DNA of 64,000 nucleotides, from NCBI GenBank assembly GCA_027972325.1, contig JAPMOS010000054.1, positions 191,998-255,997 of the forward strand, read 5' to 3'. The DNA comes from Paratrimastix pyriformis (lineage: Eukaryota; Preaxostyla; Paratrimastigidae). The notes under the pieces were generated by a model. That model saw only the letters and a list, made by a program, of their open reading frames with translations, was not told where the DNA came from and did no database searches. The position numbers and the translations under genes are program-made. This document shows, one piece after another, positions 23,101 through 63,025 of the stretch. Each line of letters begins with the position of its first letter. Within the stretch, counting starts at the first letter, position 1.

Positions 23101-23884
23101 GCCCAGGTAGCCGCGGTGCATGCAGGCATAGTGCAGCAGGCTCGTCCCCATGGCCGTCCGATGGCCCAGAATGCGGCCGTCTGACCACGGCGGGTGGGGG
23201 ACACGGAACGAGCGTTGAGCCGCGGTCAGAGAAAAAAAGAAACGGCGATGGACGGAGGGAGCGAGGGTTGAGCGGAGGGGTGGCAGCGGGAACGGGGGGC
23301 CGCGGACCGTGCTCGGAGCGCTTGAAGAGCACCCGCACCAGGTCGCGGTCGTTGTGGTGCAGGGCCAGCGAAAGGGGAATGTGCCCCTGCGTGTCGGCCG
23401 TGTCGACCTCGGCCCGGTTCTCCAGCAGATATCTGGGCTCCGACCCGCCCACCCCACCGACCGGAGAGGGGAGAGAAGAGCGGCCAGGTGAGCCACCCAA
23501 CCGAGGCGACGCAGACTTGATGACGGTCTCGTTGCGGGCATCCACGGCCAGCAAAAGTGGTGTCTGGCCGAGGCTGTCTCGGTTCTCGAGGGTGTTCCGG
23601 CCACGGGCCAGAAAGAAGTTCAGCAGCTGGAAGGTGGCCAGAGAGGACTCCCCCGAGCATGGCGGCTGAGCCGCCAAAAGATGCAGAGGAGACTGTTGGA
23701 GATACGGGGTCACAAAAGACGATGTTGTTGAGAGCTGGGCAACAATTTCGTTCTGGTGGCTCTGGACCAGAGCCAACGCGAGGTGATTTTGGGAGCATTT
23801 CAAGGCACCCAAGATGGCCTCGGGAACTGAGAGCATCCTGTTTCTTATCTGTTCTTCTGTAATCGAAAGGATGCCATAATTCAT
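14148..23884 (-). CDS. Very large ankyrin-repeat protein with C-terminal PH-like region, spliced
   Basis: Many-exon gene starting at the ATG complementary to 23884 (MNYGILSITEEQIRNRML); the stop TGA is at 14148-14150. Ankyrin units span most of it: SPLHLLAAQPPCSG and RDSLGQTPLLLAVDARNETV (exon 23884-23517), HIPLSLALHHNDRDLVRVLF (~23390), TSLLHYACMHRGYLGL (~23130), DSPLIFAARAGIV (~22930), RTALHAAVLRGDLQTAGLLL (~22710), IGALHAAAMANDMDAFRLLL (~21070), RTVYHTAAQCGHVTLLYALL (~20840), TPLHLAAARGDLDVIVLFL (~18150) and TALHLAAMCPHGH (~15860). Long Ala/Pro-rich linkers separate the units (~22500-22000, 19400-18600). The C-terminal exons hold a PH-like fold: LKAGFLLRRGPFRSSW (~15030-14985), later RWTFAVHLRGAGRPLRLAAC and a WLRALRFAIG helix (~14370-14240). 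PH domains usually bind phosphoinositides or protein partners, so a membrane-associated scaffold is inferred. Introns carry many different tandem repeats. Confidence 0.78.
14573..14690. repeat. 16-base tandem repeat (GGGCATGACCAAGGGT), ~7 copies, intronic
   Basis: Units vary only at the last bases (GGGT/GGGC). They lie between two PH-region exons of gene 5. Confidence 0.9.
15374..15438. repeat. CAG/CCAGCAG trinucleotide-based repeat, intronic
   Basis: AGCAGCAGCC-type units lie in a gene 5 intron; the minus-strand reading is CTG/GCTG. A second CTG-type run (GATGCT/GCT units) lies at ~15968-16033 in another intron. Confidence 0.8.
16090..16190. repeat. Two adjoining G-rich tandem repeats, intronic
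   Basis: Three copies of an 18-base unit (GGGGGGCATGTGTTCGTG) pass into three copies of a 14-15-base unit (GGGGGGCGGGCATGC). The two share the GGGGGGC start, so one may have grown from the other. Confidence 0.85.
16645..16792. repeat. 15-base tandem repeat (GATCAGATCGCAGGG), ~8 copies, intronic
   Basis: Near-identical units lie in a gene 5 intron, with a shorter 8-base sub-repeat (CAGATCG) inserted around 16741-16770. Confidence 0.9.
19255..19293. repeat. TTG/CTG trinucleotide run in coding sequence
   Basis: On the minus strand it reads as AGC and AAC codons, giving a Ser run followed by an Asn run in the Pro/Ala-rich linker of gene 5. Confidence 0.7.
19970..20085. repeat. (GGGATT/GGGATG)n hexamer-like repeat, intronic
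   Basis: Interspersed GGGATT and GGGATGGG units on the plus strand lie in a gene 5 intron. They resemble G-rich telomere-type repeats in composition but are not TTAGGG. Confidence 0.9.
20524..20627. repeat. 26-base tandem repeat, exactly 4 copies, intronic
   Basis: Four identical 26-base units (each beginning CCCGGGATCAGCC and ending GATGAGATG) lie in a gene 5 intron. The identity of the copies suggests recent expansion. Confidence 0.95.
21427..21547. repeat. (AGGAGGC)n heptamer repeat, intronic
   Basis: About 16 imperfect AGGAGGC units (some AAGGC variants) on the plus strand lie in a gene 5 intron; the sense strand is CT-rich. Confidence 0.9.
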
Positions 23885-27100: not shown

Positions 27101-30100
27101 CTCTGCGAGCAGAACCCCGTCATGTTCTTCGCGGTCCGCGGTCCCTGCCCCTCTGCCCCTCTGCCCCTCTGCCCTGCCCCTCTGCCTCTGCCCCTCTGCC
27201 CCCCTCCCCTCTGCCCCCCCCCCTCTGCCCCCTCTCCCCTCTGCCCCCCTCCCCCTCCCCCCTTCCCCCCCCTCTCCTGCCCCTCTGCCCCTCTGCTCCC
27301 GTCCCCCGCCCTCTGCCCCTCCTCGTCCTCCCCCCCCCCAGCCCGGTCCTCCCCTTCCCCCTCCTGTCCCTCCCCTCCACCCCCCCTCCGGTCCCTCCCT
27401 CTCCCTCACCTCCACCTCCACCTCCCCCTCCCCCTCACCCCTCACCCCTCACCCCTCACCCCTCACCCCCTCACCTCACCTCGACTCACCTGGCTGCGCT
27501 CCCTCGCCTCCCCTGGCCGCGCAGAGTTCATCCCGCTGGAGCAGTTCATCCGGGAGAGCGACCTCTTCGGGCTCATCTCCCAGCTGACCTTCTTCCGCAC
27601 CTTCCGCACCGCCAAGGTCCGCCCCACCCCCCGGCATGGCATGTCGCCCAAGTGATCATGCCTTGTGCCTCCTGCCTGGCTGGTGGCCGCTCCCGATGGT
27701 CACCCTGCGTCCCCTGTGGCATCGGGCGGCACTCTTGGGGTGGGCGGGTGGGTGGACGGTGGGGGGACTGGCGAGCGCAGTATTTCCGGCAATGGCGGGC
27801 CAACGTGGTGGCGGCCAAGTACACCCAGGCCCGGACGGCCGTCGGGCGGCTGCAGCTGGCCCGGCACCCGGCCTTCATGCGGGCCCTGGGGGACATCATC
27901 CAGCTGCTGGAGGACTCGCTGCTGGCCCGGGCCATGGCCCACACGCCCTCACACAGCCGCACCGCGGCCGGGCGACGCCACTCGCGGGCCGTCATCAAGG
28001 CCCTGGTGCCCACCGCCAAGGGCGAGAGATCTTCGACACGGTTCGCCCCCGCCCCCACCCCCCGCCCCCGCCCCGCCCCCCCGCCCCCGCCCCCGCCCCC
28101 ACCCCCCACCCCGGCATCCGCATCCGCATCCATCTGTTCGCTGTTCGGCGGGCGGGGGATGTCGCTCGGCACACAGGAGGAGGTTCCGCTCTTCGGGTTG
28201 CTGCCCTGCCACAACACGACGGCCCTGACGGTGGCCGAGTTCGCCAACCACCTGGCCACCCACCGCCGCGAGGCCCGCGCCATCCTCAAGCCGCGTCCGT
28301 CCCGCGCCCCCGACTCCCCTCCCGTCTTCACACCCGTTGCGCCATGCTGCTGGGTGGGCAGTGGTGCAGGACATCCGGACCCGGCTGGAGCTGCTCTGCG
28401 ACGAGTGCATCGAGCGGGCCTTCGCCGCCGCCGAGGAGGCCCACGCCGCAGCCGAGGCCAACGACCCGCTGGTGCGCCTCCTGCGGGCAGCCGCGGGCAG
28501 CCCACCGCCCAGCCAGCAGGGCGCCACCGACCGGCCCGCCGCGGGCGCCCCCGGAGCGGGAGCGGCCACAGCGCCCGGCGGGGCCTCCTCGCCTTCCTCC
28601 TCGGGCCCCTCGCCCGGGGCCGCCACCACCGCGGGGGCGCCCAGCTCCGTCGCCGGGTCGGGGGCGGCCACCCCGGGAGCCAGCACGCCCGCTTCCAGCA
28701 AGTGGCCCCTCACCGCCGCGGGGGGGGCACCGCCAGCGGCCAGCACCTGGACCGCGGCCTCGCTGACGGGGCTGCTGGGTGTGCCCAAGGGGAGCCGCGA
28801 CCCGCTGCTCGACGCGGCCGACGACGACGACGACCTTGACGACGACGAGGAGGAGGAGGAGGACCAGCCACAGCCCAACGGCCTGCCGGGGCGGTCCGAG
28901 CTGCTGGCCATCCCCGGGGAGGCCCGCAGCCCCTCGCCCACCCGCTCGGGCTCGCCCACGGTCTCGCAGGGACGCACCGTGACCGCCTCGCCCCCGCCCG
29001 AGTACCGCTCGCCCTCGCCTGTCATGTCCCGGGCCGCCTCGCGGGCAGCCAGCCCACGCTCGGGCGCACAAGGGTCACTCGACACCGGGCCGACCAGCCC
29101 CTCCCGGTCGAGCTCGCCCACGGGGACCCCCACCACCACCGGCGGGAGCCCCGCCGCCTCACCCGTGATGTGGGGCCGCTTCGAGACCATGAGCAGCTTC
29201 GAGCTGCAGCCGTCCCGCTCCCCGCTGCGTCCCCAGCCCACGTACCCCCAGCCCACGTACCCTCAGCGGCAACTGCTCATGGCCCACCAGGGCAGCGTGG
29301 CCGCCATGCCGGCAGTCAACGCGACGGCCCCCGGGGCCCCCTTCGCCGCCTCCCCGGGGTCCGCCTCAATCTCGGCCCAGGCCTCGGCTTCGGCTTCGGC
29401 CGCACGCTCGCTGACCGCCGCCGCAACGGCTGCCGTCGCTGCGGCCGGCGGGCCATCGGCGGGCGGCGCCGCCCCCACCACGGGCCCCCAGGCCGCCGGT
29501 GGCAGCGGAGTCCGGGTGCCGCGGTCGCTCCTCTCGCGCCTGGGGCGGCGCCACCGCCTGAAGGCCACCGAGTGCAGCGACGAGATGCGGCAGGCGTGGC
29601 GCTTGTGCCGGCTGGCCGAGTACATGGTGGCCGAGCGGACCGTCGTCTGGGCCCTCCGCGAGGCGGCCGCATGGGAACGCGGTCCGCGCCCCTCACCCGC
29701 CACGCACGCACCCACAGACGCCGTCGGTGGTCTCCGAAGCACCGACCCCCCTCCCGCCCATCACGCCCATCACGCCCATCACGCCCATCACGCCCATCAC
29801 GCCCATCACACCCATCACACCCATCACGCCCATCACGCCCATCACGCCCATCCGCTCAGACGGATCACAATCCATCCCCCCCACTCGCTCGTCCGCCTAA
29901 CCCTCTCTGCTGCGGGCGGCCGGCAGTCGTGACGACCCCGGACCGAGGCTACTTCGTGGTGGACGTGACCCTGGACGAGGCCTCGCAGCCCGTGCTGAAC
30001 CCATCGGCCGCCCAGATGGTGGCCATCATCGACCAGGCCCTCAGGGGGGTCGCCCTGGCCCTCACCAACCCCACCCGGATCGCCACGGCCCCCGCCTTCC

Positions 30101-33100
30101 GCCGCTTCCAGCTCATGGCCGGCCTGGACCCCGTCCGCAGCCCTGACCCACCCCCGGCGCCCCGGCCCCGGGTTCGGACCCACCATCATCTTTTCTTTTG
30201 GCGCTGCTGCGGGTGCGGGTGCCGGTGTCGGTGTCGGTGTCGGTGCCGGTGCCGGTGCGAGCAGGCAGACCGGCCGAGCCCGCTGGACGCGAGCGTGGGG
30301 CACTTCTTCACCAGCAGCCCGGCCTACGAGCGGATGGCGGCCGCCCTGCACGCCCATGTGGCGGCCTCCTACGAGCGCTGCCTGGCCCGCTGGCGGACCG
30401 ACGCGGCCAGCCTGGTGGAGACCCTGCAGGGAGCCGCCAAGGGGTGGGACGTGGCCGAGTACTTCGGGCGGGAGTGCGTCGGGCCGGACGGGCGGCTGGT
30501 GCTGGACCGGATCGACCGGGACCTCGACCAGTGCGCCCGCTGGAGCCTGCAGGTCTCCAACCTGCCCCACCACCTGCGCTGCGGGCTGGTCTTCCTCCGG
30601 CTGGGGCCCCTCAAGGGCCGCCTGGGGGCCGTCCCCGCCCAGATGGCCGGCGACCTCAAGGGCTACCTGGCCCGGTACCACACCCAGCGGGTCGAGGCCA
30701 TCCACGGCCGCCTGGCAGCCCTGCGGGCGGAGCTCGCCCAGGAGCCCACCACCATGCAGGACTTCGCCGCCTACACGGGCAAGCAGCGCGCCGCCTCAGC
30801 CGTCTACGAGGCCGCTGCCACCGAGTCCACGTACCTGGGTGTCCGCCAGCACTGCCGTCTCCTGCTCCTCCTCATCTGCTCCTCTGCTGCCCCGCCTTTG
30901 CCGGCTTGGACGGGTGTGTTGATGCTGTGAGCTCCCCCTCCCCCGGGCGGGACTGCAGGAGCTGGGCCGCCTCCTGGTCGGGAAGAAGGTCGAGTTCACG
31001 GGGCCCGAGCAGGACCGCCAGAAGGGGCTCCAGGGCGCACTCCAGGAGGCCCACGACGCCGTCGCCACGGCCGTGCTGCGGGTCAAGCGCGGCACCCCGA
31101 CCTGGGCCCGCACCATCGACAAGCTCCTCACCACCCACCAGGTCCGCCGCCGCCATCGGGCCCCCGGACCGCACCCGCTCATTCCGTCTCCGTACCCCCC
31201 CCGCCCCTCGCCCCCCGGCCCTGGTGGGCCAGACCTTGCTCAAGAAGACCGCCGCCCGGCTGGATGACGGGCCCTTCCACCCGCGCCACGCCGAGTCGGT
31301 GGGGCCCCTGCCGGCCCTGGAGCTGGTCCGCGAGCTGGCCGCCATGCGGCAGGAAATCGAGGCCATCGCCACGGCCTGCCGCCAGCTGGCCGCCTACCAG
31401 GGCGAGCTGGAGGTCCCCGTCACGGCCACCGCCCAGGCCGACCAGGTCCTGGAGCAGCTGGCCAAGGCCGAGGCCCTGTGGGGCCTGGTCTACGGCTGGG
31501 CGAGCGGCATCGAGACCTTCACCGAGACGGCCCTGCCCCAGCTCGACCTGGGCGCCTACCGGACGCTGGTCGAGGAGACCATCCGCCAGGCCGACAGCCT
31601 CCTCGTCCAGATCAACTCACACGCGGTCCGGTCTTGACCCTCCTCGGGGGGACGCACGCACCAAGGCCAGGACTGCCAGCCCGGTCGCACTCTCACCGCA
31701 CGCCGCCGCCGTACTGTCTGGACTGTGGTCTGTGCTGTGATGCCTGTGCTGTGGGCTGCCACGCTGTGTGCTGTGGGCCGCGCAGGTCGCCCGGGCGCTG
31801 AAGACGCAGGCCGAGTTCTACCGGCGCCCGATGGACATTCTGGCCGAGGTGCTCTCGCCGGCCTTTCTCAAGCCGCGCCACGTCAAGGCCCTCTTCGAGC
31901 TCCTCGTCCGTCCCGCCTCTGCCTGTCGCTCGTGCCGCGACCCTGGCTCCTCGACCCTGGTTCTGGGCGCGCTGACCCCGCTTCTTGTTGGGCGGGGGCC
32001 GGTTGGGGCTGGCGGCTGCAGGGCCTCGAGTGGGACGGGAAGGCCAACAAGACGACCGTCCGGGTGACCCTGGGCGAGCTCTTTGAGGCCCCCCTCACCG
32101 ACTGTCTGTGCTCCCCCCGTGTGAGCCGCCCCACCTGCTGCTGCTGCGTGTGTGCCCTGCCCTCACTCGTGGCACGGATGCACTGCCCTCCTTCGGGGAG
32201 CCCACCTTCACGTGCCTTCTTTGCGGCGGTTGCGTCATGCCCGCACTGTTGCCTGCTGGCGGCCAGTCCGCGATGCGGTCCATGAGCTGGCCGTCCGGGC
32301 CAACGAGGAGCACGCCATCGAGGCCTGCCTGGCCCAGACCCACGAGGGCTGGCACCAGCTCACCCTCTCCGTGGGCCCCGTGGGCCCCGACCAAGGCGCT
32401 GCCGCCCCGCTGATGCTCGTCGAGCCCACCGTCGCCGCCCAGATCCTCGACGACTGCAAGGTCGCCCGCCCCGCCCCAACCTGAACCTGACCCCGGCATG
32501 GCATCCCCCACCCAGCCCGGGCCCCGGGCACCCCAGCCTTGACCCACACCCGCTCCTCGTGCCTGGGGGGCGCAGGTGACCCTGCTGTCGCTGCTGAGCG
32601 CCCAGTCGGTGAGCCACCTGCTGGAGGACGTCGAGGCGGCCCTGCAGCGGCTCGGCCAGGCCCAGCAGCTCCTCGCCGAGTGGATCCGCTTCCAGGAGCT
32701 CTGGCTCGCCCTCCTCCCCGTCTTCGGCTCTGAGGGCCCCACCCAGCAGTCCCAGCAGCCCCAGCCCCAGCAGCCCCAACAGCCCCCATCCAGGGCGCCA
32801 TCCCCCCAGCCCCCATCCAGGGCGCCATCCCCCCAGCCCGGAGCGCCACCCCCCGCCCCCGAGCAGCCGGTCGGCCGAAGGGCTACGGCGCTGCACCAGT
32901 GGCTGCGGCCCGAGCAGCGGACCTTCAAGGACATCGACGCCGCATGGCGGGGTCTGCCTCGGGCCCCGGGTGGTGCCCCCGGCCCCTTTCCCCCCGAGGA
33001 GCCTCATCCCTCATCGCCGCCCCGCCACTCCTGGTGGGACGGGCGGGCAGGGCTGATGCTGGCCGTCCGGGAGAATCCGCTCCTGTCGGCTCAGTGCACG

Positions 33101-36100
33101 GGCGGGGCCGCGTCCAGGTTCCGGTTCCGCGAGCTCTCCGACGCGCTCGAGAAGCTCCGCGCTCGCCTCCACGGGTCCGCCAGCCCTTCCTCCCTTCCTC
33201 CTCCTCCTCCTCCTCCCGCCCCTCCATCCCTCTCACCGGCACCACCATCGGCGGACCTCCTCCGTCCCTGCGGCCGCTCAGACTCCTGGCCACCCGGCAG
33301 GCGGCCTTCCCGCGGCTGTACCTGCTGTCGAGCGCGGCCCTGCTGGAGCTGATGGTCCGCGGCAGCCGCGGCCCGGCCGAGGCGCAGCCCTTCCTCGCGC
33401 AGCTCTTCAGGTCCGCCCGGCCGCCCTCGCCCCAGCCCGCGCGCCTCGAGGGCTGTCAAGTCCCTGCTGGCTGCCCCCCCTGCCAAGGGCTCACACGCAC
33501 CTTCCCTCGCTTGCCCCCCCCCCCCCCCCCCCCCCCCCGACAGCAACGTCCAAGACCTGCACTGTAGCACGGCGGGCGAGTATATCACGGCCGTGTTCAG
33601 CCCCGAGCGGGAGTGGTTCCAGCTGGCCCGGCCCGTCACCGTCCACAGCCGGGTGGACCCCTTGCTGCCCGCGCCCCCCGCCGGTATCCGCCGCCCCGCC
33701 CCGCCACCGGGGCAGCCCGGCCAGGGGGTCACTCCCCCTCCCGCGGTCGTGTCGGCCCCTCCCGCCCCGAGCGAGCCCGCCAAGGGGAGGACCGGCGAGG
33801 GCGCCCCCGCCAAGCAGCAGCCAGAGGAAAAGGGCGACCGCGACCACCCGCAGGACGGCGACGGGGGCAGTAACAACGGCGGGGAGAGCGGGCCCCTCAG
33901 GCGCCCCGAGGAGGGCATCCCAGTCGACGAGGGCCGCCCCGGGGGCCTCGTGCTGCCCGTCGAGGAGGCCACCATGGACGCCCTGCCCGGTCCGCCCCGC
34001 CCCGCCCGACCCGCCCCGCCCCGATCCGCCCCGGCCCGCCCCCTCCGCACCACACCACCCGCTCACACGCATTCTTCCGCACCGCTTCCCCCCTGGACCC
34101 CCAGACGAGTGGCTGCGGGCGCTGGAGACAAGTCTACGCGTGTCCGTGGCGCTGAGCCTGAAGGCGGCCCTCCTGGAACGCGGCCAGGCCGATGTCTATC
34201 CGGCCCTGCCCCCGCTCCCCGCTCCGGGTGCCTCACGCGCGGCCCCCAAGGGCTCGCCCGTCCCTTCGCTCGCTGGCGCACGGTCTCCGTCGCCGCCTCT
34301 GGGCCAACGGTCCCCGTCCCCGCCCCCGGGCTCCCCACCGCCACAGCAACAGCAGCAGCAGGGGCCCCAGAGCGATGCGGACGGGGTGCCCGAGCTGAGC
34401 TGGTTGGGGCGAGCTCCAACCAGGTGGCCCTCCTGCAGCTCGAGGTGTCCTTCGTCCACCAGGTCGAGGCGGCCCTCTCCAGTCCACGCGTCCAGCCCCC
34501 TCCTCCCCTCCCATCCAGGCCCCGTTCTCCCCTCCTTCCATCCATCCGCATCCGCATCCATCCGCATCCGCATCCGCATCCGCATCCGCATCCGCATCCG
34601 CATCCGCATCCGCATCCGCATCCGCATCCGCATCCGCATCCGCATCCGCATCCGCATCCGCATCCGCATCCGCATCCGCATCCCGCCGACGAGCCCCCAC
34701 ACGCACTGGTGCATGCCCATTCCCCCCTGCCCATTCCCGGACACATTCCCGTGCCCGTGCCCACCCTCATCCTCGCATCCGCGTCTCGGCCGGCTGGGCA
34801 GCCGGTACCACATGGAGGTTGCCGGGTCGCTGGGCCGGGTGGGGGTCGCATCGCCCGCCGACCCCCGCTGGCTCCGCTACCCGCGCCTCTACTGGCGGCC
34901 CTGCGCCACCCGGTACGGCCCCCCCGAGGAGCCCGCCAGCCGGGCCGGGGGCCACTGCTTCGTGGACGCCCTCAGCGGGGCGCCCATCGCCGCCTCGGCC
35001 GAGCCGCCCTGGCCGGCCTCCGGCTCGGCCCCCGCTTCGTCCGACCCGTTCAAGGCGACCACCTGCGAGGTGGCAAGCTCGAAGCCCGGTCCGTCCGCGG
35101 CCCGCGGCCCGGAGCTGCCGCATCCTCCCGCCATCCCCGCTGACCGATTCGTCCCCCCGATCACCTCCGCCCTCTGCTCGCCGCAGCCGATGCTTGGCGG
35201 TCGGCGGGCCGTGGGCCGCGCCGTTTCACAGCGGTCTCCTCGGATGACGGGCCGAAGATCTGCTATCGGCCCGTGGCCACTTACCCGGGGTCTGCCGCCC
35301 CGCCGCGCTCCCCCAGGGGTCTGCTCACGTTCGCATGCTCCGCCCCTTAGCGCGCTGCTGCTGTGCCATATGGGCGAGACCTACGAGCATGGGCTCGAGT
35401 ACCTCGGCTGCGGGCCCACCCTCGTCGTGACCCACACAGTCGCGGTCTGCCCGACCCGATTTGCCGATTGCTCTTCTCCAGCAATGCCCATTCCTCCCTG
35501 CCCATTCCCCGATTTGCCGATTGCTCTTCTCCAGCAATAATTCTATCTGCTCGCGAATCTCTTTACGTTGGTACTGAGCAACCCCCGGATTTTCCAGATA
35601 AGTCTCACCAGTGCCACCCGTGCGCTCAGCCCTCAAGGCACGGCAGCACGTTTGGCACGCACCCGCACACCCATCCCTGGGCCCATGCATCCCCGCACTC
35701 ATACCCGCACATCCGCACACACCCGCCCACACCTGGCCAGACTGCCCTGGACGGGGTCCTCAGCTCGGCCGGTTGCTCGCAGATGTGCACCCTGGTGGGG
35801 GCCCCCGGGACGGGCAAGACGGAGCTCTTCAAGGTCGGCCCCGGCCCGCTCCCGCCGCCCCAACTCACCCCCGATGACCACACGCCCCACGACCCGACAT
35901 GCCCCTGATGACCACCCACGCACCTGAAGAGGACCGCCCACGCACCTGATGAACCCACACGCAAACCACACACCTCATGACCCTCCCGTCCGCTGCCCCC
36001 GCCAGTACGCGGCCCACCTGATGGGGCGCCCCTGGCTCCTCTTCACCTGCTCCAACGCCCTGGCGACCCCCTTCCTGGTACGCCTCTTCGCGGGCGCGAC

Positions 36101-39100
36101 TCAGGTCTCGACGCTTCCCCCTGCCGGCTGCCTTCGTTTGCCTCATCATCATGGCGCCCTGTGGCGTTTGGGTGGAGGGCAGACGGGGGCCTGGCTCTGC
36201 CTGGAGGGGTTCAACCGGCTGGCGGAGGATGTGCTCTCGGTGGCAGCCCAGCTCTGCTCGGAGGTGCTCGCCTGCCAGGCCATGCTGGCCGGCTGCCGGC
36301 CCGTCGAGCGCCCCTGCTGCCTCATGCCCGGTCCGCCCGCCCTGCCCGACCCTCACCCACCGCAGCATCCATCGGCCGCCCTCAACTCGAAATCACCCCG
36401 GGGGCGGGTTCGGATTGCCGGTCTGCAGGCGCCCCCGCCTGGGTGCCTGTGCACCCCCACTTCGGCCTCTTCGCCGCCTACAGCCTCGAGGGCCCCCGCG
36501 GCACCCTCCGCGAAATGCCCCTCCACCTGCGCCCCGCCATGCGTTGGTCTGCCCGCAACCCCTGGCCGCGCTTTTTGGCCTTGCCAGGATGAGGCCCTTA
36601 TCCATCTCCATCTCCATCCCATCCCAACCCCATCTCCCACCCTAACGTCGATCCTCCTGCTGGGCAGTGTGGCCATGGTGGCCCCCGACTTGGACCAGGT
36701 GGCCGAGCCGCTCCTGGTGGCCGGGGGCTTCCAGGAGGCCACTATCCTTGCCAGGCGGCTGGCCTTGCTGGCCATCCTGTGCCGGGATGCCTTGGCCGCC
36801 TACCCGCACTACGCGGCCCTCCTCGGGTCCGCCCCTGGCGCGCCCGTCGTCCGGCCCTGCCGCTTTGTACCCTGCGCCCGGCCGCCTCACATGCGTCCTC
36901 CGTACCCCCATCCCCCACGTCCACCTCACGTCCCCCAGGACCGTGCCGCAGCTGGTCTCGGCCGCGGCCGAGGCCCGCCTCAGGCTCGGGCCCGCCTCCT
37001 CCGCCGAGGGTGCCGGGCGGGCGCAAGACGAGCGGGTGGTGTTTGTCTCGGTGGTGCGGGCCCAGTGGGGCGTCCTGATGGTGGGGGCCGACGCGGACAC
37101 CTTCGAGGCCCTCGTGACGGACGTCTTCGGCCCGCAGGGCCCCACCTCGGCAAACACCACGGCGGCCCTCCTCTGTGCCTCCAACAGCCTGACCCCTGAG
37201 CTCCCCGAAGAGGTTGGACGGCCCGCCCTGCCCCCCGCCCTGCCCCCCGCCTGTCCCCGCCTATCCCCGCCTCCCCCGCCTGCCCCCGCCTGCCCCCGCC
37301 CTGCGGTCCAGTCCCCGAACACGCATTTTTTTCTCCTGTGGGCGTGCAGTGCCTGGGAAAGGCCTGGGCCATGCTCGGGATGGGGCCCCTGCCCAGCCAG
37401 CCCAACGTCCTGCGGCGGCTGCAGCACGCCTTGCACATGCACCAGTCCCCCCTGCCGCCCGACTTCCTCACATCGGCTGCCCCGCTCCGCCCTGCGCCAT
37501 GCGAGGGGGGCGCTGCCTGTCCCATGTGCCGCCAGCAGCCCGCAGCCACGGTGCTGGTAGGACCCCCGGGGGCCGGCAAGACCGTCCTGCGGCGGGTGCT
37601 GGCCCAGGCCTGCAACCTGGCGGCCGACTCGCTGGCAGCGGCGGTGGCGGCGCCCCCGAAGCGCAGCATGGAGGCCATCCGGCTCTGGCAGGGGCGCGCG
37701 ACCCAGCTGCACCCCGTCTCGGTGCACATCCTGGCCCAGGCAGCCATCGCCCCCTCGGAGCTGGTGGGCCGCTGCGGGGCCGCCTCGGGGGGCTGGCGGG
37801 ACGGCGCCCTGACGACCCTGCTGCGGCGCATCTGGGCCCACGCGGCTCCCTTCCGTCCCGACTTGGCCGCCCCCGGGTGCGGCCCGGCCGCTCGGCACCA
37901 TTGGATCGTACTGGACGGGCCCCTCGGGGGCACCTGGAGCGAGCAGCTGCAGGGCCTCTGGGACCAGCAGCGGTCCGCCCCTTCTCCATGATGGGGGCCT
38001 CTCGGACTCGCGGCACGCCGTGCGCACACGGGTTGCCTCTGCTCGGGTTGAAGGATCGCCGCCGCACACGGATGGGGGTCTGACACACGGGTTGCCTCTG
38101 CTCGGGTTGGGGTGGCTGCAGGGCGCTGACCTTGCCCACTGGCGAGCGGCTGCCGCTGCCCCCGCGGACGCACTTCCTCCTCGAGACGGACGACCTCGCG
38201 GCGGCCACCCCGGCCACCCTCGCCCGGTGCTCGGTGGTCCGTCCCCGCCCCGCTGCTTTGCCGTGCGCCCCCGCGGCGGTCGGTCGGTGCCCCGTCTCAG
38301 TGCAGCCGTGCGGGGCGGGTGTGCGCGTCCTGCTCAACTCCTCGTGCAGGTCTACTGCCCGCTGGACAGCCACGCCACGCACACCCACTTCGAGCGGCTC
38401 CTGGCCGGCCTGCCGCCCTGGATCGACGAGCCGCTGCGGGTCTACCTGCGGATGCTGGGCTCGATCTTCCTGGCCCGGGCCCTGCGGTGGATCGAGATGG
38501 AGCTGGCCGGCTTCGGCTTCCTCCAGCCCAACCCCAAGCCCCCCGAAGACCGTCCGTCCGGCCGGCCCGGCATCCTTCCACCTGCGCGCCGCCTCCCTTG
38601 CGGTTGTGCCGCTTCATGGGGCACTAAATAGCCATCTGTTTCTGGGCGGCCTTCCTCGCCGTTCTTCTCGCCACCCCACAGCCGCCCCGGCCCCGGCAGG
38701 CGCCGCCGGTGGGGAGGGCCAGCAGCCGGACAACAAGGGCGGCCGGCACCCGATGCCCTCGCTGGGCCAGCGGCAGACCAAGGGCGCCGAGAGCAAGGAG
38801 GCCATCTTCGAGGGGACTCCCTTCGCGGCCCCCCAGGCCCAGACCCTCCTCGAGGAGGCCGCCCTGCCCGCGGGGGTGGCCTCCAGGGGCCTCTATGAGC
38901 CGGCCCTCCCGGCGGCCGTGCCGCTCGACCTGGGCAGCAGCGGCGCCACCGCCACGGGCGGCACGGCCCGCACAGCCACCGCCCGGTCGGCCTCCATCAT
39001 CCAGGCCTCCACCCAGGCCCAGGCCGTCGCGCAGGGGCTGGGAGCGCCCCTCGGGGTGGGCCACTTCACGGCCGACATGCAGCATCGGCTCTGCCAGCAC

Positions 39101-42100
39101 TGCCTGGCCGGGGCGGCCCACGCCAAGGAGGCCCTGTGCCCCTCCCTGCAGCGGCCGGGGCTCCTGGTCGGGGCGGCCACGGGGGGCGCCCGCTACCCGC
39201 GGGCCGTGCCGCCCCTGGTGTCCCTGGTGGGCAGCTTCTGCCAGGTGATGCTCGCCATGGCCCGCGGTCTGCGCCCCGAGTGGAGCGGGGTGGCGCTGCG
39301 GCGCTCCCGGAGCAGCTCAGTCTCGCTGCTGGACCCTCTGCGGCCCCACGGGGCCTCGGCACCCTTCGACGAGCACACCCCCTCCCGGGTGGTGGCCTCG
39401 CTCTTCGCCTACAGCGTCCTGTGGGGCATGGGGGCCGCCCTGCCGGCCCCCCACCAGGAGCGCTTCGAGCGGTTCTGGCGGCACGCCCTGGCGGCCATCC
39501 CGCTCTCGCTGGAGCTCGACCGGACCTGGGTCACGGCCGGGGCCGGCTCTCGGCCCACCTTCAACGTCTTCGGCGAGATCCCCGCCCAGACGTCGCTCTT
39601 CCACTGCTACGTGCACCCCATCCTGGGCACGCTCACCGTTTGGGACCCGCTCTTCGTCGTCCCCAGGCCCCTGCCCCCCGTCCGTCGCAGCGCCATCCTC
39701 CTGCCCCCCGCCTCGCCTCGAAAACCCCCTCTCACACACACTCCGCATCCCCTCCCGTCCCCGACCGTCCGCCTGCTGGGACTTCGCTTTGTTTTTTGTG
39801 TGTTTTGGGCTGTGCTCGTCTGGCTGGGCCAGTCGCTCGAGGACCTGTTCGTGCCCACCCCCACGACGGCCGCCCTGCACCACCTGCTGGACCACCTGCT
39901 GCCCTGCGGCTCCTCGGTGCTGGTGCTGACGCCCTCGGGTGGCGGCCTCACCCGAACCCTGGTCCACTGGCTGACCCAGGTACCCCTGGGCGGCACCCTG
40001 GCCGTGACGGGGAACCTCTTCCCGCCCGGGACGGCCCCCTCGCCCAGCCCCTCGCCGGGGCCCCAATCGCAGCGGAACAACGCATCGATGACCTTCGGCG
40101 GCCCCCAGTCCCAGCGGGGCGGTGCCCCCATGTTCGGGCCCGGGGTTGGCGTGGGCATGGCAATCCCGCCCACCCCGCTGGGCGAGGCCCCCACCCCGCT
40201 GACGCTGCTCTCGGCCTACCGGGAGCCGCCCACCCCCATGACCCTGGCCCCGCACACACCCCTGGGCCCCATGACCCCGTCCTCGGCCCGGTTCCCGCTC
40301 ATCCGCCGGGGCAGCTCGAGCGCCCGGATGGCCCTGACCATGCTCCATCAGGCCTCCTTCCGCTCGACCGGCCCGGGGCCCTCGGCCTCGCTGCCCCTGC
40401 CCGGCGCGGTGGCGGCCCACACCAACCCGGGGCCCAGCCCGCTGGCGGCCGGGCCGATCGGGTCGGCGCGAAGCACCTACGTCACCGCGACCCAGACGGC
40501 CATCCCTGCGCTGCCCGGGCCGCTGCCGGTGCCGCTCATGTCGCCCCAGTCGCTCGCCTCGCCCGCCTCGTCGGTGGCCTCGTCGCGGGCGCCCTCGGTG
40601 ATGGCCCCCTCGGTGGCTGGCTCCCAGTACGCCCCCTCGCCGGGCGGCTACTCGGGCCGCCCCACCGCCGTCGCCCAGCTGGCTCTGCTGGGGACGGGGC
40701 CCCTGACCTTGCTCCCCTCGACGGGCCAGCCCGACCTGCGCGCCTCCCTGGACGCCCTCACGGCCGCCTCGCTGGCCCCCCTCCCCGAGGCTGTCCGCGC
40801 CTGGGCCGCCCAGGCCGCATCTCCGGGGGCCCCCCGGGCCGAGGCGGCCCCGACGGATCGCCCATCGGGCTCCCCGGACCCCTCTGGGTCGGACGATGGC
40901 CCCCGGTCGCCCTCGCCGCCCCCCCGGCCCCCAGGGGCCGCCCCCGACTGGCCCGACCTGCTGGGCATCGAGCCGGCCCTCCTCGACCAGAGCCCCGAGC
41001 CGCCCCCCTACCGGCACATCCTCTTCGTGGACGACCTGCAGGCGTCCGTCCTGCCATCCTCCCCTCCCTCCACCGCTCCTCCTCCTTCATATGTTGCCTC
41101 CCCAAACCCTCCTTGCTCCTCCTCCTCCGTATTGCCACCCCCGTTTCGTTGCTCCTTCCCTCTCTGGCCGCCCCCCAGGCCGCCGCTGCGGAGCTGGTCC
41201 GGCCCGGCCGAGCCGAGCACAGAGCTCCTCAGGCACCTGGCCGACCCGGCCATCCGCACCTACCACAGCGTCCTCGCCCCCGGCCAGACTCGCCCCAGCC
41301 AGCCCATGCCCCTCCACCCCCGGACCCTCGCCAGTCCGTCGCCCCTGCTCAGCTCCCCCGTCCCAGACGCCTCTGCCGCTCGTCGCCTGCCTATACTTGG
41401 CTCCCCTTGCCTGCAGTCGCCTGCCCGTCGCCTGCCGCTCGCCCGCTCACGTGCCGGGCGGGGGTCGGGTTCTCCTCGACTTGCGTGGTGGTGGCGGCGG
41501 CGGGCCGCAGGCTCGGTGACCCTGCTCTGCGGAGCGCACCCCCGGGCGCCCCACCTGAGCGGCCGCTTCCAGCGCCACTTCACGGTGGTGCGCCTGGGGG
41601 GCCTGATGCACCGCGGGGAGCAGCTGACCCTCTACGGGTGCACCGAGGAGGGCGTCCGCATCGCGGCGGGCCTGGCCGAGGCGGCCCTGCAGCCCCCCGT
41701 GACGGACGCCTTCAAGGGGGCCATCTCGCTGACCATGGGGGCCACCCTCTCGCTCCTCAAGCAGCTCGCCCACCACTTCCTGCCCCTGCCCCACTACCCC
41801 CTCTACCAGTGGCACTTCGCCGACCTCGTTCGGGTCTTCGAAGGTCTGCATCTGCAGCCCCCCCCTCGGGCTGGACTGACGTTGTCTGGCGGGGCCTGGC
41901 CTTTCCATCGGCCGTCACCTGGGCACGGACTCATCTCCACGCGTCCGTGCTGCCGTTCCCGCTGCCGCTGCTCTGCTCCCACCCACGACAGGACTTCGGG
42001 CCTTGACGGTGGACGATCTGGACGGCGGGACGCGCAACTCGGTCTTCTGCGAGATGCGGGTGGTGCTCATGTGGCGCCACGAGTGCCGCCGCTCCTTCGG

Positions 42101-45100
42101 CGACCGGCTTCTGCTGGACGAGCACCGCAGCGGTCTGCCCTGGCCCTCCACCCATCATCGGATGTTCCGCCTGGGGGGAGGGAGAAGGCATGATTGATTC
42201 GGCGCTGATTGGGTCTCTCGGCCGGTCGGCTCTGCGGGGCGGCGGCAGTCTTCGAGAAGCTGCTCAACGAGAGCACCGCCCAGGTCTTCGGGCCCAAGAA
42301 CATGCAGTGGGCCCTGCGGGACGAGCGCAACCTGGCCGGCCCCCCCGACGGGGCCCCCGAGGAGGCCCTGGACGACGCGCCCGGGGCCTCGGACAGCGAG
42401 GAGGTCGGCCGGCCCAAGGCCTTCCTCGCCCTGGAGCCGCCCACCGGCCCGGGCCAGCCCCGCGCCCCAGCGCGGTCTGTCGCGGCCCGTTGCTGCCCCC
42501 TTTGGTCACACACCGACCATGGTGACGGATCCGATGATGATGATTGGATGATTGGTCATCATCATCCAATCCATCCAACCATCCAATCATCCAATCATCA
42601 TCATCCAGCCATCACCATCCAGCCATCACCATCCATTCATCCATTCATCCATTCATCCATTCATCCATTCATCCAATCATGATGGTGATGATGATGATTG
42701 GATGATGACGACGATGGCAGGCCGTACACATGCGCCGAGATCCGCGACCACGTCCGAAGTGTGCTGCGGGAGCACAACAGCAAGTCCCCGGAGGGCGCCG
42801 TGCCCCTTCGTGTGGCCTTGGTCGACGAGGCCGTCCATCACATCGGTCCGCCCCAGCAGCCTCGACCGCACGACCATCATCATCCGCCCGCTTTTTTCCT
42901 TTTTCCTTTTCTTCTTTCCCCGCCCTTCTTCGTAGCCCGTTTGGTGCGTGTGCTGCATCAGCCGGGCGGGTCGGTGCTCCTGCTCGGGACCACAGGCGCC
43001 CAGGGCCGGCGCACCCTGACCCGGTCTGCGAGCATGCCATCAGAGGCCATGCCCCCCACAATCTCGCCCCTTCACGATCTCTTTTTCATTTCCCCGCCTG
43101 CGCTGTCTTGGGCAGGCTCGCCTGTCTTGTGACGGGGACCGAGCTCTTCGAGCCGGATCCCACCTGCGCCCTGACCAGCGCCGGTTTCCGGGCCCTGCTG
43201 GCGGGCGGGCCCCTGGGACCCGCGCTGCTCACCGATCGGCACATGTGCCTCTACCTGACCCACCGCCACCTCGCCGCGGCTCTGGGGGGGCCCTCGGACG
43301 ACGGGGCCGCGGGATCCTTCAGCGGAGGCCTCACCCGCGGCCGGGGCATCGATGGCTCCGAAGGGGTTGCCCGGCCCGGAAACACACCCGGCTGGAGGGC
43401 CGCCGCTCGGGCGCCCTATTCGCTGTGGGCCCCAACCAGCGGGGCTGCGACCGGCGGGGCTGCGTCCGGCGGTGGTGGTCTTGACGGTGGGTCGGTAGCC
43501 CCTGACGGGGGCCCCCTGCGCCCCGACGGGTCCCAGGCCAAGCTCGCGCCCCCATCCGGGGCGGCGCTCGGAGGCCGGACCCGCTCGCTGACGGCCATCG
43601 AGTACGCCCGTCAGAATGCCATCGTCACCCAGCAGGAGGCTCCGGGTACGACCGGCGCGGGGGTTGCCGGGGGCCCCGGGGCCGCGGCAGGCGGCAGCCG
43701 ACCCGAAGCCGAGATGGCCGACCCGGCGGCCGAGGGGAGCCACGACCCGCGCCTGCGGGGCCACCAGGCCCTCTTCGACGAGGACGATGACGCCAACGGG
43801 ACGCGCGAGGGCGCCGGGTCGGCTCTGCGGGGGCAAACCCTGGTGGAGGACCTGATGGTCCTCATGGACCCCATGAGCTGCCCCGACATGATTCAGCGCG
43901 TCCACACCAAGGACAGGTCTGCTGCGCCCGTCACGCCGCCGGCGCCGCCGCCAATCACCACCCCACCCGCCACTCCCTTCCTTTGTTTGCATCATCACCC
44001 CCACATCCCCGACTCACTCTCCGCTCCCACTGTCCCGCCAGCTTCGAGCGGCTGATTTTCGACGCGCGGGTGCCGGCCCGGCAGCGTGGGTGCGACGACC
44101 CGAGCCCGCAGGGGCTGCTCGAGCACCTGGCGGGGCAGCTGCGCCACCGGCTGCACGTCGTGATCGCCCTCGACCCGACCCCCACCCCGCCCGGAGACCC
44201 GGCCGGCATGGTGGTGGGCTGCATGCAGGCCGCCCCGGGCACGGTGCTCCCGCTGGGGCGGCTGGTGAGCATGTATCCCTCCTTCGCGGCCCGCTTCCAC
44301 GTGGACTTCTTCCCCACCTGGTCGCTCGGCTCGCTGGCCGACGGGGCCCAGTGGGCCCTCAATACCTGGGACCCGACCCTCTCCTCGGCCCTCAGCTGCG
44401 CCTCCCTGAGCGGCCCCGAGCCGCCCTCACCCGACGAGGTCGGTGCCGAGGGCGAGGAGGCCGAGGCCGGGGCGACCGAAGGGGCATACGGATCGGCCGC
44501 CCCCAAGGGCGGGAAGGCGGGGCCTCGTCCGCCCGCCCCCCTGGACATCCCCCAGCGTGCCGACGCCCCCACCGCAACCTGCGCCCAGCTGTGTGGGGTC
44601 CTGCACCTGGTGGCCTGCCGGCACGCGGCCATGGCCAACGCGGACGGGGCGGGGACCCACCCGGGCGAGCTGATCGTGGGCATCGCCTTCGCCTCGACCC
44701 TGGTCCTCGCCATGGGCCGCCTCTACGCCCGCATGCTCCGCGGCAAGAAGGCCCGCCCCTCCAGCGGGCCGTTGGGCTTGGTGGTGGCGCCCCCTGCTCA
44801 TGGCTCGCATGTATTCGGCTGCTGTCTGCGGGGGGATGCAGGAGAAACACAGTGCCCGCATCCGCCGCTACCAATCGGCCATGGCCAAGGGCCGCCAGAT
44901 CCGCCAGCGCGAGGGCATCTTCCTGGCCCGGTGCGGCACCATCAAGGTTTGCCCCGCCCCCACCTCCGGGTGCCGGTGCCGGTTCTGGGGGTTCTCGCCG
45001 CATGTTGGGGGGTCTCGCCCCATGTTGGGGGGTCTCGTTGGGTCTCGTTGGGTCTCGTTCCGGGGGAGCGGATGCTGGGGGTCTCACCCTCACCCTCGCC

Positions 45101-48100
45101 CTCGCCCTCACCCTCACCCTGGGCATGGCGGCCCCGCAGCCGATCCTGGAGGAGCGTCGCTTGCGGCGGGACGAGGCTCAGACGGCCCTCGATGGGGCGC
45201 AGCGGCTGCTGTCCGAGGCCCAGGAGCGCTTCCGCCTCGACCAACTGGAGGAGCGCCGCGAACACGCGGCCCTCGACGGGCTCGTCGCCCAAACGGAGGT
45301 CCGCCCGCACGGCCCAAGCGCGCCTCCATGCTCACCGCCCCCATCCTCACCGCCCCCATCCTCACCGCTCCCATCCTCACCGCCCCCATGCTCACCGCCC
45401 CCATGCTCACCGCCCCCATGCTCACCGCCCCCATGCTCACCGCCCCCATGCTCACCATTCCGCTGACCCCAGAAAACCCTCGGGGAGACGCTGGGCCCCT
45501 TCCGTGCGGCCTGCCTGACGGTGGAGATGGTCAGCCAGGAGGACCTGGCCACCATGCGGGCCGTCCAGCCCGTGCCCCCCTCCACCCTGACCGTCCTCCG
45601 GTGCATCTGCGTCCTGCTGGGCCAAGAGCCCACCCCCGAGGCCGTCAACAAGCTCTACCTCGCCGACAAGCTCCCCACTCGCTTGGTCTGCCACCCTCGG
45701 CACCGGGCACCGCCACTGGGCACCGCAAGGGCGACACGGGCACGGGCACGGGCACCAAGGCACCGCAGCAGGGCCGGAGATCGCCGTTGGGGGATCACGA
45801 GCGATCGATCTGTGGTGGCTGTCACCGCGCCATCCGCCTAGGGGGGCTTTTCGCTGGAAGCCGTGGCCGAGCCCCGCGACCTGATGGCGGGCGTGAGCGC
45901 CTTCATGGGCGGCGAGGGCAGCGCGCTCTTCACGGCCGAGCGAATCGAGCAGCTCGACGGGGCCATGCGGCGGATGGCCCACTGGGTGAGCACCCTCGAG
46001 CGCCACCTGCACACCATGCTGGCCGTCCGCGAGCTCCAGGCCCGGACGGGGGTGGCCCGCGAGGCCCACGAGGCCGCCCTCAAGGTCCGCCCTGTCCTCC
46101 AGCCCTCTGCTCCTTCCACCTCATTATCGTGCGCGGTGCTGCGCTCTGCTGCTGCTGCTGCTGCTGGCTGCTGCTGCTGCTGCTGCTGCTGCGAGGGCAT
46201 CGCTCACGGTGTGCCGGTCGGGGGGGTCGCTCCTCACGCGCCTCGTGGGACGGCGGGCGCAGCGGATGACCGAGCAGCGGGCCGCCCTGAAGGCCGCCCA
46301 GGAGAAGAGCGCCGCCTGCGCTGACGAGCTGGCCACTCGGGCGGCCCAGCTGGCTGAGATCGAAGAGCAGACGAATCTCAACGCCACTCGGCTCGAGCGC
46401 ACTCGCGCCCTGGCGGCCACCTACCAGGGTCAGCGGCTCGCACCCAAGCGGGGTTGGACCTGCTGTCTCTCGACGTTTCCTCTGTTCCGCACCTTCCCCT
46501 CACCCTCTCCCTGTCCGCCCGGTCCGCGTCTCCCCAGCGGCGGAGCCCAAGTGGCGGGCCGAGATGGCCAGGCTGGAGACGGTCGAGAGCACCATCGAGG
46601 GCGATCTGCTCCTGGCGGCGGCCTGCCTGACCTACATGGGCCCCTTCTCGGCCCCTGCCCGGGCCAACCTGCTGCAGAACTGGATGGGGGCCCTCGCCGA
46701 GGCCGGGCTGGCCACGAGCTTCCCCTTCTCGCTCTCGGCCGTCCTGGGCAACCCTGTCGAGCTCCTGTCTGTCATCCCCCCCGTGTCCTTGCCTCTCGGC
46801 ATTCCCTCCCCACTGCTCGGCATCTGTCCTCGGCATTCGTTGACCGGCTCGCTCGCGCCTGTCGGGCCCCGCAGGGAATGGTCGACCTTGCTGCCCCACG
46901 ACCCCAACTCGACCACCAGCGCGCTGTTGGTCAAATACTCCCTGGCCGACTCGAGGCCCGCCCTGCTGATCGACCCGCATGGCTTGGTCCGCCTGCCCGC
47001 CCGCCCGTGCCATGCCCGGTCCCCCTGAGGCGCGCCCTTTCCACCCGCTGGCCATGCCCGCACGTGCCATGCCCGGTCCCCCTGAGGCGCGCCCTTTCCA
47101 CCCTCTGTGCCCATGGGTCTCCTTTGGCGCTTGCTGTCGTCTGCGCGGCTGGCCCCACCCAGATCAAGCGCTGGCTGCTGCACCACTGGGCCACCCGGAG
47201 CGAGGTGCACCTGGTGCATGCCAGCATGCCCCTGGCCCAGTTCAACCGGCATCTGGAGCAGGCCCTGGCCCTGGGACGGCCCCTGCTGGTGGAGGGACTG
47301 ACGGGCCGCCTGCCACGGAGCCTGGAGATGGTCATCGACCAGCTGGCCATGCACCCCGCCGCGGCCTGGTCGACCAAGCTGCCCTCGGCGGTGGCCATCA
47401 TGGCGGGCGGCATGGACGCGGGCACCCACGACGGGGGGCCCACCGTCCGGCTGGGCTCGGCCGAGGTTTCCGCCCACGAGAACTTTCGGCTGGTCCTCTG
47501 CGCCGCCGAGGGCTCCGTCCTCACCCCGGCCCTCTTCACCCGCTGCAACGTCATCAACGCCCTGGCTCCCGAGCCCCGCGCCTTGCACAGCATGGTCTGT
47601 CGGCCGGCCTCGACGCCACGGACACACTGACCCCCTTGCTTCCTGCTGGCGGCCCCAGCTGTGCCGAGAGGCCATCTTTCGGGCGCGGCGGCCGGAGGCC
47701 TATCGAGAGATGGTGTCCCTGGAGGGGAAGCTCGTCCAGAACCGGACCCACATCCACCGAGCCAGCAAGGAGCTTCTCCAGCTGCAGGTGGCCTGCCTCT
47801 GTCTCCCCGACCTGCCCCTCACCAGCCACCCTCCGTTTCATTGGGACGCAGACACCGAGCAGGCCCGGACCCCTGCAGATGTCCTCGATAACAAGGTCTG
47901 CTCGCCCTCGGGGCTTCCGGGAGGCTTACCCTCCCCTCCCCTCCCTCCCTCCCTCCTCCCTCCCTCCCTCCCTCCACAGGGACTGTCGGGCGACATGGTC
48001 GCTCTGCACCAGACTGTCGAGACGCTCCACGGGGCCTGTGCCACCACCGAGGCCGCGCTCGCCCGTGCCCGTCCGTTCGCCCCTTCCCCTGTCCCTGCCG

Positions 48101-51100
48101 CTGATCGCATCCTCTCTTTGGTTCCTCGCCTGTCCGGTCCCGCAGAACGCGAGGCGCGGCCATTCGTGGAGCTGGCCGACCTGTGCCTGGGGCTCTACAT
48201 GGGGCTCGCCGACCTGGCGCCGCTCTTTGGGCCCCCCGCCCGCCCCAAGGAGGGCACCCCGCTCCGGGCGCCGCCCCCCGGGCTGCTCGACCCGGAGCCC
48301 GTCGGATACGCGTCCTTCTACCGGTGCCCTCCGTCGCCCTTCATCTTCGCCACCCTCGTCGCCCAGGCGTGCGCCCAGGGCAACCTTGGCGGCCCCGAGG
48401 GGCTCCAGACCCAGACCCAGACCCAGACGCCCATCCTGCCCCAGGGGTCGGGCCCTTCTGGCCTTGATGGCCCGCGGATGGCGCCGGGGCCCTTCGACGC
48501 GCCCTCCGGGGAGCGGCCCGCCTCGAGCGAGGCCACCTCGACGACGGACAGCCGCATCGACGAGGTGAGCGAGACCTCGCCCGACGACGAGGGCGGCGAC
48601 GTGGTCCTCGTGGCCCACCCGGCCGCGCCCGCCCCCCAGCCGATCGAGGCGCCATGCGGCGGCCCAACGGATGAGACCCGCGCCCGGACCCCACCGCCGA
48701 CGCCCGGGGGGGCGCCCACCGAGGCACCGAGGCCGGGCCGCTTTGCATCGATCGAGGTCTGCCGCCCTCCTTCGGCCCCGGCGGGCCGGCCACCGAGTCC
48801 TCACCCTGACCACCCCGTTGTCTGGCGTTCGTACTGATGTGGGTTGTGGCGCGCAGGATGAAACGGCCCACTTCCGTCGCCGCATCATCGAAGCCGTCTT
48901 CCGCTACGTCCGGACCCTCCTCCTTGCGGTTCACAGGGTCTGCACCCAAACCCGGGGCGAGGCACCCGGGCCTCCATCGCCCGTCCCTTCTTCTCCCTTC
49001 CTCACCCTCGGGAACGACATTCGTTCGGACACTCGCGCACACACATGCCGATCGCCTCGCAGCCCTTGGGGACCTTCCTGCTCTGCGTGGCCCTGCTGAA
49101 GCCCCTTGACCCCGTCCTGAGCCCCTGCGGCCCGCACGAGCGGCCCCACCGTCGACGGGGCACCCGGGGCGGGGAGGGCGCAGGGATGTGCCTGGCGCAT
49201 GCCGTCAGCGAGTCCGAGTGGCAGATGTTCATCCGGGGCCCCGGGGCCCTGGCCCAGCTGGCCCTCAGCATCAGCCGGGGCCGCAGCGGCGAAGGCGACG
49301 GGCCCGACGAGGTGCCCCTTTCGCCGCCCTCGCCCCTCTCCCCCATGGGCCGCATCTTCCCCTCCAGTCCGGCCGCGGGCGGAGGGCCGGGGCCCCAGCA
49401 GCCCGGCTGGACGCCCGGCCATCGCGGCAGCACCCCGGCCGAGCTACTGGCCAATGCGGGGCCCATGCCGCGGTGGCGCCCCGACCCCGGGCGGACCTGG
49501 CTCACGGAGGACCTCTGGGCGGCCGCCTGGGCCCTGTCCCACCTCGCCGCACGTCCCCTCAAGGGCCTCTTTGCCGTCATCTCGAGCAGCCCGGCCCTCC
49601 TCGAGCCCGTCCTCAGGGCCACCGGGGTCTGTCCCTCGAGCCTCGCTGCTTCCCGTCCTTCCTGCGACCATCTCCTGCCCCGGGTCCTTTCTTCCTTTCC
49701 TTCCATCTGGCTGGCTGGTGCCGGGGGCTCTGGATGAGGGTTTCTTCTTCCTCATACGATCGGGGCTGCATTGGCATCGACAGCCCGTGACGGCGGACGA
49801 GTTGGCTGCTTTCTTGGACCGGCCTGCCTCGGGCCACATCAACCCGTTCACGCTGGTTCTTGCAGCGCGGATGGTGGCCCCCCACCGACTGGCCCCCACG
49901 GCCGCGGCCTTCGTGTCGGCTGCCGTGGGCCCCGACCTGGCCACCTGGGCGGGCCTCGAGGCGGCCCCGGAGAGCCTCCTGGCCTCCTACGGGACCCGGC
50001 TGCCCATGGAAGCATGCGCCGCCCGCTGCGGGAGCGCCACGGTGCCGCATCTGCTCTACGCCGACCGGCCGGACGGGGAGCCCGACATCCACGGCGCCCT
50101 GACCCTCGTCGGCCCCGACGAACGGCGTGTGGTTGGGGCCCCACCCCGGGAGCACATCGACCCCGTCGCCGCCATCGGCCAGGCGGCCACCCGGGCCGGG
50201 GTGCGGCTGCGGGTCCTCTCGCTGGGCCATGCCCAGGCAGCCCGGCTGGACGCCATCCTGGAGGATGCCATGCTCGAGGGGTCTGTCCATTGCTTGCCGT
50301 CTGGCGGCTCATCATCGCCCCGCTGCATTCCGATGCTTGCCACCCGCCACCCACCACCACCGCAGGGGCTGGGTTGTGCTGCGGGACCTGGACTTGGCCC
50401 CCTTGAGCGCCCTGCGGCAGCTGGAGCAGCTGCTGGCGTCGCTGCAGCTCCGCGAGGCCGACAGTCTCGACCCCGCCCTGGCCGGCCTGGCCGAGGCGAC
50501 CGCCTTCCGAGCGCCCCTCTTCCCGGCGAGCCCCGACGCCCAAGCGAGCTCGGCCAGCCAGCCCGGAGGCGGCGGCGGCTCCAAGGGCATCAGGGCCGCC
50601 CGGCGGGCCCTCGAGCGGCGCCACGTGGTCGCGACCTCTGCCGGCCCGGCCGGCCCGGGCGGGCCCACCGGTGGGGGCGGGGCCTTGGCCGGGGGCGGTT
50701 CTGCCCCTGCTCCGGTCGGCTACCGCGAGTGCACCGTCTCGCCGCGCTTCCGGCTGTGGATTCTGGCTTCCGCCTCCCGGCAGCCTGCCCGGGGAGGGGA
50801 CGCCTTGGCCCTGGTGCGCTCGATCGCGGCCCACTGTTGGGTCGAGTGCACCGAGGGCCCGGTGGGCCTGCGGGGGCGTGTCCTGGCTGCGTACCGGGGC
50901 CTGCTGGCAGCAGGAGCCTTCACAGGGGATCCGCTCGCCGACTCGAGGGGAGACCTGTACGGCCTTCCCACCGAGGCGTCGGCTGCGACCCCCATCGCCA
51001 CGCCCACCTCGCGGCTCGCCCCCACGGTCTGCTCCCAGAGTCCACCCTTCTGCCGCCAACCATTTTCACCCTCCCCGACCCTGTGCGCAGTCGGCCCTTC

Positions 51101-53815: not shown

Positions 53816-53846
<31 letters not shown>

Positions 53847-56714: not shown

Positions 56715-63025
<6,311 letters not shown>

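Follow-up and report, generated by a model that had tools for sequence, protein, structure and literature searches.

Dynein heavy chains are commonly regarded as motors. ATP binding at the AAA1 site leads to microtubule release, and hydrolysis resets the ring (PMC7215579). When AAA1 hydrolysis of yeast dynein is blocked along with ATP binding at AAA3 and AAA4, the motor adopts the gamma registry whichever way it is loaded and unbinds at forces near 1.5 pN; the AAA1 E/Q plus AAA3 K/A mutant is reported to show alpha/gamma behaviour (PMC7683685). Braschi et al. 2022 (PMC8754002) describe human DNHD1 as an orphan ("ghost") dynein heavy chain gene that may be left over from an old duplication or be on its way to becoming a pseudogene. 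Among the literature matches listed, it is the sole idea related to a natural hydrolysis-dead dynein; the excerpts of PMC12338079 and PMC12637542 contain nothing on such a protein. The gene described here is found in a 64,000-nucleotide stretch of DNA from Paratrimastix pyriformis (assembly GCA_027972325.1, contig JAPMOS010000054.1, positions 191,998 to 255,997), referred to below as the window. It represents a very divergent dynein heavy chain, with its linker starting at about 31.4 kb and its C-terminal domain lying near 54.5 kb. Its features suggest a complete heavy chain that is probably kept as a non-hydrolysing pseudo-motor, likely a static microtubule tether or a structural arm subunit.

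The nucleotide-binding sites that bear on this proposal were read directly from the sequence:

35798-35821, plus strand: AAA1 Walker A, GAPGTGKT, intact, also found by motif scan
36198-36221, plus strand: AAA1 Walker B, CLEGFNRL in the context WLCLEGFNRL (canonical CFDEFNRI), with Asp changed to Glu and the catalytic Glu to Gly
36467..36484, plus strand: AAA1 sensor-I stretch, LFAAYS (canonical FITMN), with Asn changed to Ser; in exon 36429-36546, placed by eye in a gapped alignment
37560-37583, plus strand: AAA2 Walker A, GPPGAGKT
39932-39958, plus strand: AAA3 Walker A, PSGGGLTRT, with Lys changed to Leu
41015-41038, plus strand: AAA3 HILFVDDL, with FVDDL kept
42986-43015, plus strand: AAA4 P-loop, GTTGAQGRRT, with Lys changed to Arg and one extra residue

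The gene is without the AAA1 Walker B Asp-Glu and the sensor-I Asn: FDE is replaced by LEG, and TMN by AYS. All nine paralog models from the same genome have FDEFNR at Walker B. The motif is likewise intact in C432 and C421, which were read separately, giving 11/11 in a count that leaves out C494, C57 and C373. Sensor I is TMN in the nine models (a count without C421). An earlier reading of this DNA by a model, here called the original prediction, had reported the intact AAA1 P-loop, the Walker B motif lacking its catalytic Glu, the AAA2 P-loop and the Leu at the AAA3 P-loop, and all of these are present; the sensor-I change is a further loss that it did not contain. At AAA3 the P-loop Lys is present in 9/9 paralog models. 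The axonemal-type paralogs C222, C256 (DNAH10-like) and C451 (DNAH9/17-like) differ from the window gene in having FDEFNR and TMN at AAA1 and the Lys at AAA3. The AAA2 module also has WIVLDGP, and a finger, ATLARCSVVY, in which the Arg is kept.

The AAA4 site was described in the original prediction as a Lys to Arg change with a one-residue insertion. Both are in the sequence, in the stretch GTTGAQGRRTLTRL at 42986-43021 (the module also has LLTDRH). However, the Arg is not special because paralogs have it too (4/9: C463, C222, C446a and C485), and it was dropped as a sign of inactivity. Judged by these motifs, the Arg is ordinary and the one-residue insertion is the only odd feature of AAA4.

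A mechanism can be proposed in which AAA1 would lose hydrolysis through the changes of Walker B Asp-Glu to Glu-Gly and sensor-I Asn to Ser, and AAA3 has lost its nucleotide-binding Lys. The resulting protein may be incorporated into a dynein complex or an axonemal arm, where it would hold the microtubule without being able to make a power stroke. The residue losses themselves are seen in the sequence; from them we infer the lack of hydrolysis, and we predict that the protein binds microtubules and acts as a tether.

The dynein linker and AAA1 profiles match the window weakly and in separate pieces, and when the genome was scanned without splicing, the AAA3, AAA4 and AAA5 profiles found nothing there. 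The gene was therefore taken as very divergent and split, and a spliced profile aligner was built for this reason. It was made from the nine paralogs and covers the window gene from the linker to the C-terminus. With moderate gap costs the score is 417.3, as compared with 73.3, 97.0, 84.5 and 75.6 for four controls (the reverse complement, the reversed sequence and both strands of window positions 1-26000); with stricter gap costs it is 164.4 versus 61.1-73.5. The domains, with Pfam matches and profile scores against the two controls of each piece, are:

29916..31439, plus strand: probable distal tail, several exons with boundaries by eye, from three-frame translation
31440..35444, plus strand: linker (DHC_N2), 155.6 bits over profile positions 2-350 of 403; start approximate
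35783..37310, plus strand: AAA1 module, AAA_6 102.6 bits; profile 97.6 against 19.1 and 19.1
37397..38551, plus strand: AAA2 module, profile 176.8 against 35.2 and 26.5; matches to solved dyneins to 5.2e-18
39326..39643, plus strand: dynein AAA lid upstream of AAA3, PF17852 32.2 bits in the open frame and 32 spliced; cut-off 23.1
39827..41942, plus strand: AAA3 module, AAA_7 33.3 bits; profile 101.8 against 25.4 and 25.9
42721..44500, plus strand: AAA4 module, AAA_8 45.9 bits; profile 60.0 against 31.9 and 36.2; downstream end approximate
45140..46560, plus strand: stalk coiled coils and microtubule-binding domain, PPSTLTVLRCICVLLGQEPT ... MRRMAHWVSTLERH; profile 86.4 against 32.6 and 40.5
46585..47492, plus strand: AAA5 module, AAA_9 46.6 bits; profile 110.0 against 19.1 and 17.8; matches to solved dyneins to 1.2e-21
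49063..50437, plus strand: AAA6 module, LRVLSLGHAQAARLD...GGWVVLRDLDLA; Dynein_heavy 29.7 bits, cut-off 30.5; profile 97.2 against 29.4 and 26.1
52573..54520, plus strand: C-terminal domain, KEGVFIGGLLLQGARWN; Dynein_C 28.7 bits, another piece 25.6; cut-off 25.7

A frame arising by chance is excluded. Seven of nine domain chunks score at least twice both of their own controls, and the two that fall short, AAA4 and the C-terminal domain (39.4 against 30.3 and 28.3), are backed by the AAA_8 and Dynein_C matches on spliced pieces. Pfam matches above cut-off on spliced pieces are present for the linker, AAA1, the lid, AAA3, AAA4, AAA5 and the C-terminal domain. The linker value of 155.6 bits comes from a piece joined by eye (cut-off 31.9); another piece gives 96.8 bits, and the linker profile score is 103.2 against 23.1 and 26.1. 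The stalk aligns, in a piece joined by eye, at the expected position between AAA4 and AAA5, and the C-terminal domain is also seen in a genome scan (24.3 bits at 54067-54216). The window gene keeps the linker, the six-module ring and the C-terminal domain, along with a probable stalk and microtubule-binding domain, in a domain order identical to that of axonemal dynein heavy chains. This bears out the full-length heavy chain of the original prediction; its extent of 35798..43023 was too short, as the gene continues for about 11 kb beyond 43023 to an end placed by eye.

Upstream, the piece at 29916..31439 has no Pfam match and is probably the distal tail, an assignment made through continuity with the linker. 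No DHC_N1 match was found among the tail pieces scanned, and the start of the gene is approximate. Between the AAA3 Walker A and Walker B motifs, positions 39962-40972 are a Ser/Pro/Thr-rich stretch of 337 codons. The computed model had it as an intron, which was set aside; a coding insert is more likely because the stretch is in frame and open (open reading frame 38084-42193). A long GCATCC-type hexamer array is found at 34549-34683, within a modelled intron. The guanine-plus-cytosine (GC) content of the window is 71%.

The relationship of the gene to known dynein classes bears on the rival that survives best, that it is a DNHD1 orthologue and hence of a known kind. Profile searches of the 56 Mb assembly show twelve further dynein heavy chain loci, and fragments on C57 and C373. 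Identity to each of the nine paralogs is 30-33% over aligned columns, a value that is inflated by the aligner and indicates no class. The best match of the AAA1 open frame is DNAH17. Against solved dyneins, that of AAA2 is the cytoplasmic dynein 1 heavy chain and that of AAA5 an inner-arm chain. The tail/linker piece is closest to DNAH1 and inner-arm chains, weakly (best E 7e-5). A comparison of C446a with solved structures gave no match at a very strict limit, which is uninformative. A tree of all dynein heavy chains had been suggested along with an alignment. With the paralogs, the alignment sets out the AAA substitutions, but the tree gives no placement. Under the LG model the window gene joins C452, presumably of the dynein 1 class from its AAA3 motif, with a bootstrap of 93; under a mixture model this support falls to 58/31. 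The pairing is likely an attraction because both branches are long, that of the window gene being 0.95 substitutions per site versus 0.25-0.63. The approximately unbiased test rejects neither placement with C463/C222/C146/C485 (p = 0.158) nor placement with C446a (p = 0.219). With domains that point to different dyneins and trees that do not place it, the gene is on present alignments an orphan. DNHD1, the closest concept to it, is described as an orphan too, dynein-related, outside the standard motor classes and possibly degenerate (PMC8754002). The likeness is one of description, and orthology is a tentative suggestion; it would be compatible with a pseudo-motor.

A second rival, that the gene is a decaying pseudogene that is outwardly whole, would account for the long branch, the weak domains and the losses at catalytic sites. 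It appears unlikely in view of the intact splice signals, the coding periodicity and the retention of structural over polar residues. The donor position +3 is C in 50 of 55 modelled introns, where donors were picked with a weight matrix, and in 6/6 well-anchored introns found without a donor model. Among the exons that are 90 nt or longer, the difference in GC between third and second codon positions is strongest in the model frame in 39/44 cases (p = 4e-14), in keeping with the claim of the original prediction that many introns join in phase. GC at the three positions of matched codons is.748/.528/.889, versus.740/.749/.695 in introns. In columns that are near-invariant among paralogs, hydrophobic residues plus Gly and Pro are kept in 125 of 167 aligned and polar or charged residues in 56 of 101 (Fisher p = 0.001). 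This pattern fits relaxed catalysis with a kept fold, in an alignment that was itself optimised for similarity. Such divergence without disabling changes would be hard to reach neutrally, although the aligner could mask some of these changes as introns. When the AAA2 exon was searched against the genome, no close copy of the gene turned up (next match 28.3 bits). Taken together, the gene looks maintained.

Several points weigh against a complete, maintained heavy chain. In addition to the silence of the unspliced AAA3, AAA4 and AAA5 scans, the stalk is under the Pfam cut-off (MT 19.0 versus 24 bits) and AAA6 is just under its own. Because the aligner does not allow stops and seeks the highest similarity, the open frames and the identities are in part a product of the method. 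This sequence has few stops in any case: over 3702 codons the two off frames contain 50 and 20, and 11285 intron triplets contain 82. Five of the 44 exons fail the frame test. The retention test starts from 369 near-invariant columns and sets aside Ala (10/19 kept) and the unaligned columns (101/369), and when hydrophobic residues alone are compared with polar ones the p value is 0.033 only. The search for a copy used one exon.

A fast-evolving yet active motor, with hydrolysis supported by the LEG Glu or by some other site of the ring, is improbable. The gene does retain Walker A, the Arg of the AAA2 finger and the linker, but the Walker B Asp, the catalytic Glu and the sensor-I Asn are altered together, and the AAA3 Lys is gone. 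An assembly or gene-model error at Walker B is hardly credible, even with a model that is computed and not RNA-derived, since several base differences would be needed in an open, well-aligned exon, sensor I is altered too in the next exon, and the alternative Walker B exon that the original prediction had named as a refutation is not found as a contiguous DE-type motif in six frames of the window, a scan that an intron-split motif would escape.

The preferred reading, a non-hydrolysing pseudo-motor, can be compared with the engineered yeast dyneins with AAA1 E/Q and AAA3 K/A, with or without AAA4 K/A (PMC7683685), where the disabled sites are analogous. Those are laboratory changes in an active motor, whereas the changes in the window gene are natural and stand amid wide divergence. 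The gene has the first two losses, at AAA1 and AAA3; the third, at AAA4, is doubtful. If the Arg and the inserted residue disable AAA4, behaviour like that of the triple-site mutant would be expected, and if not, the alpha/gamma behaviour of AAA1 E/Q plus AAA3 K/A. A more specific form, in which a dynein naturally disabled at AAA1, AAA3 and AAA4 would be conserved as a permanent, ATP-insensitive microtubule crosslinker in a flagellar arm, locked in one stalk registry, is possible on this analogy but rather unlikely.

The 5' splice sites of this genome have the form G|GTCCGY. In 84 confident introns from six paralogs, found without a donor model, there are 83 with C at +3, 69 with C at +4 and 76 with G at +5. 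An exact search of the assembly for the canonical U1 5' end, ATACTTACCTG, gives no match, as against 57 for the reversed pattern. Eight U1 loci were found, all under the Rfam gathering score, and the three copies read all begin with AUACAGACCUUG instead of AUACUUACCUG:

G000:C212:360323-360478: U1 locus
C231:12923-13078: U1 locus
C24:520094-520250: U1 locus

U1 G6 pairs with the donor +3 C. U1 is an imperfect donor complement because A5 fails to pair with the usual +4 C. For the perfect complement, ATRCGGACCTG, there are 111 matches against 16 for the control, and no U1 locus is among the 100 that were listed. One U6 copy was read and has the canonical ACAGAGA box. From these pairings U1 and the donors look to have co-evolved, and the changed U1 5' end and donors may have a wider significance than the dynein gene.

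Elsewhere in the window, a DHC_N1 tail match of 42.1 bits at 3187-4689 on the minus strand probably belongs to the N-terminal region of another dynein heavy chain, C446a, which has its motor just left of the window on that strand. An 880 aa open frame with ankyrin repeats is at 20583-23225 (minus strand), and a helicase-like open frame is at 57557-59608 (plus strand; DEAD 20.3 bits, under cut-off; GETGSGKT at 58817). In the assembly, a weak AAA_7 match at G000:C446:164268-164411 is in a 4057-residue open frame, which we take to be perhaps a midasin-like AAA protein, and C234 has a weak AAA_6 match.

A complete heavy chain that preserved its architecture but no longer hydrolysed ATP at the drive site would be evidence that a dynein fold can be retained for a non-motor job, and the window gene would open a route to the function of DNHD1-type "ghost" dyneins. 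The grip predicted for it could be compared directly with the published mutant data. If the ATP-insensitive crosslinker proved true, nature would have produced an equivalent of the engineered triple-site mutants.

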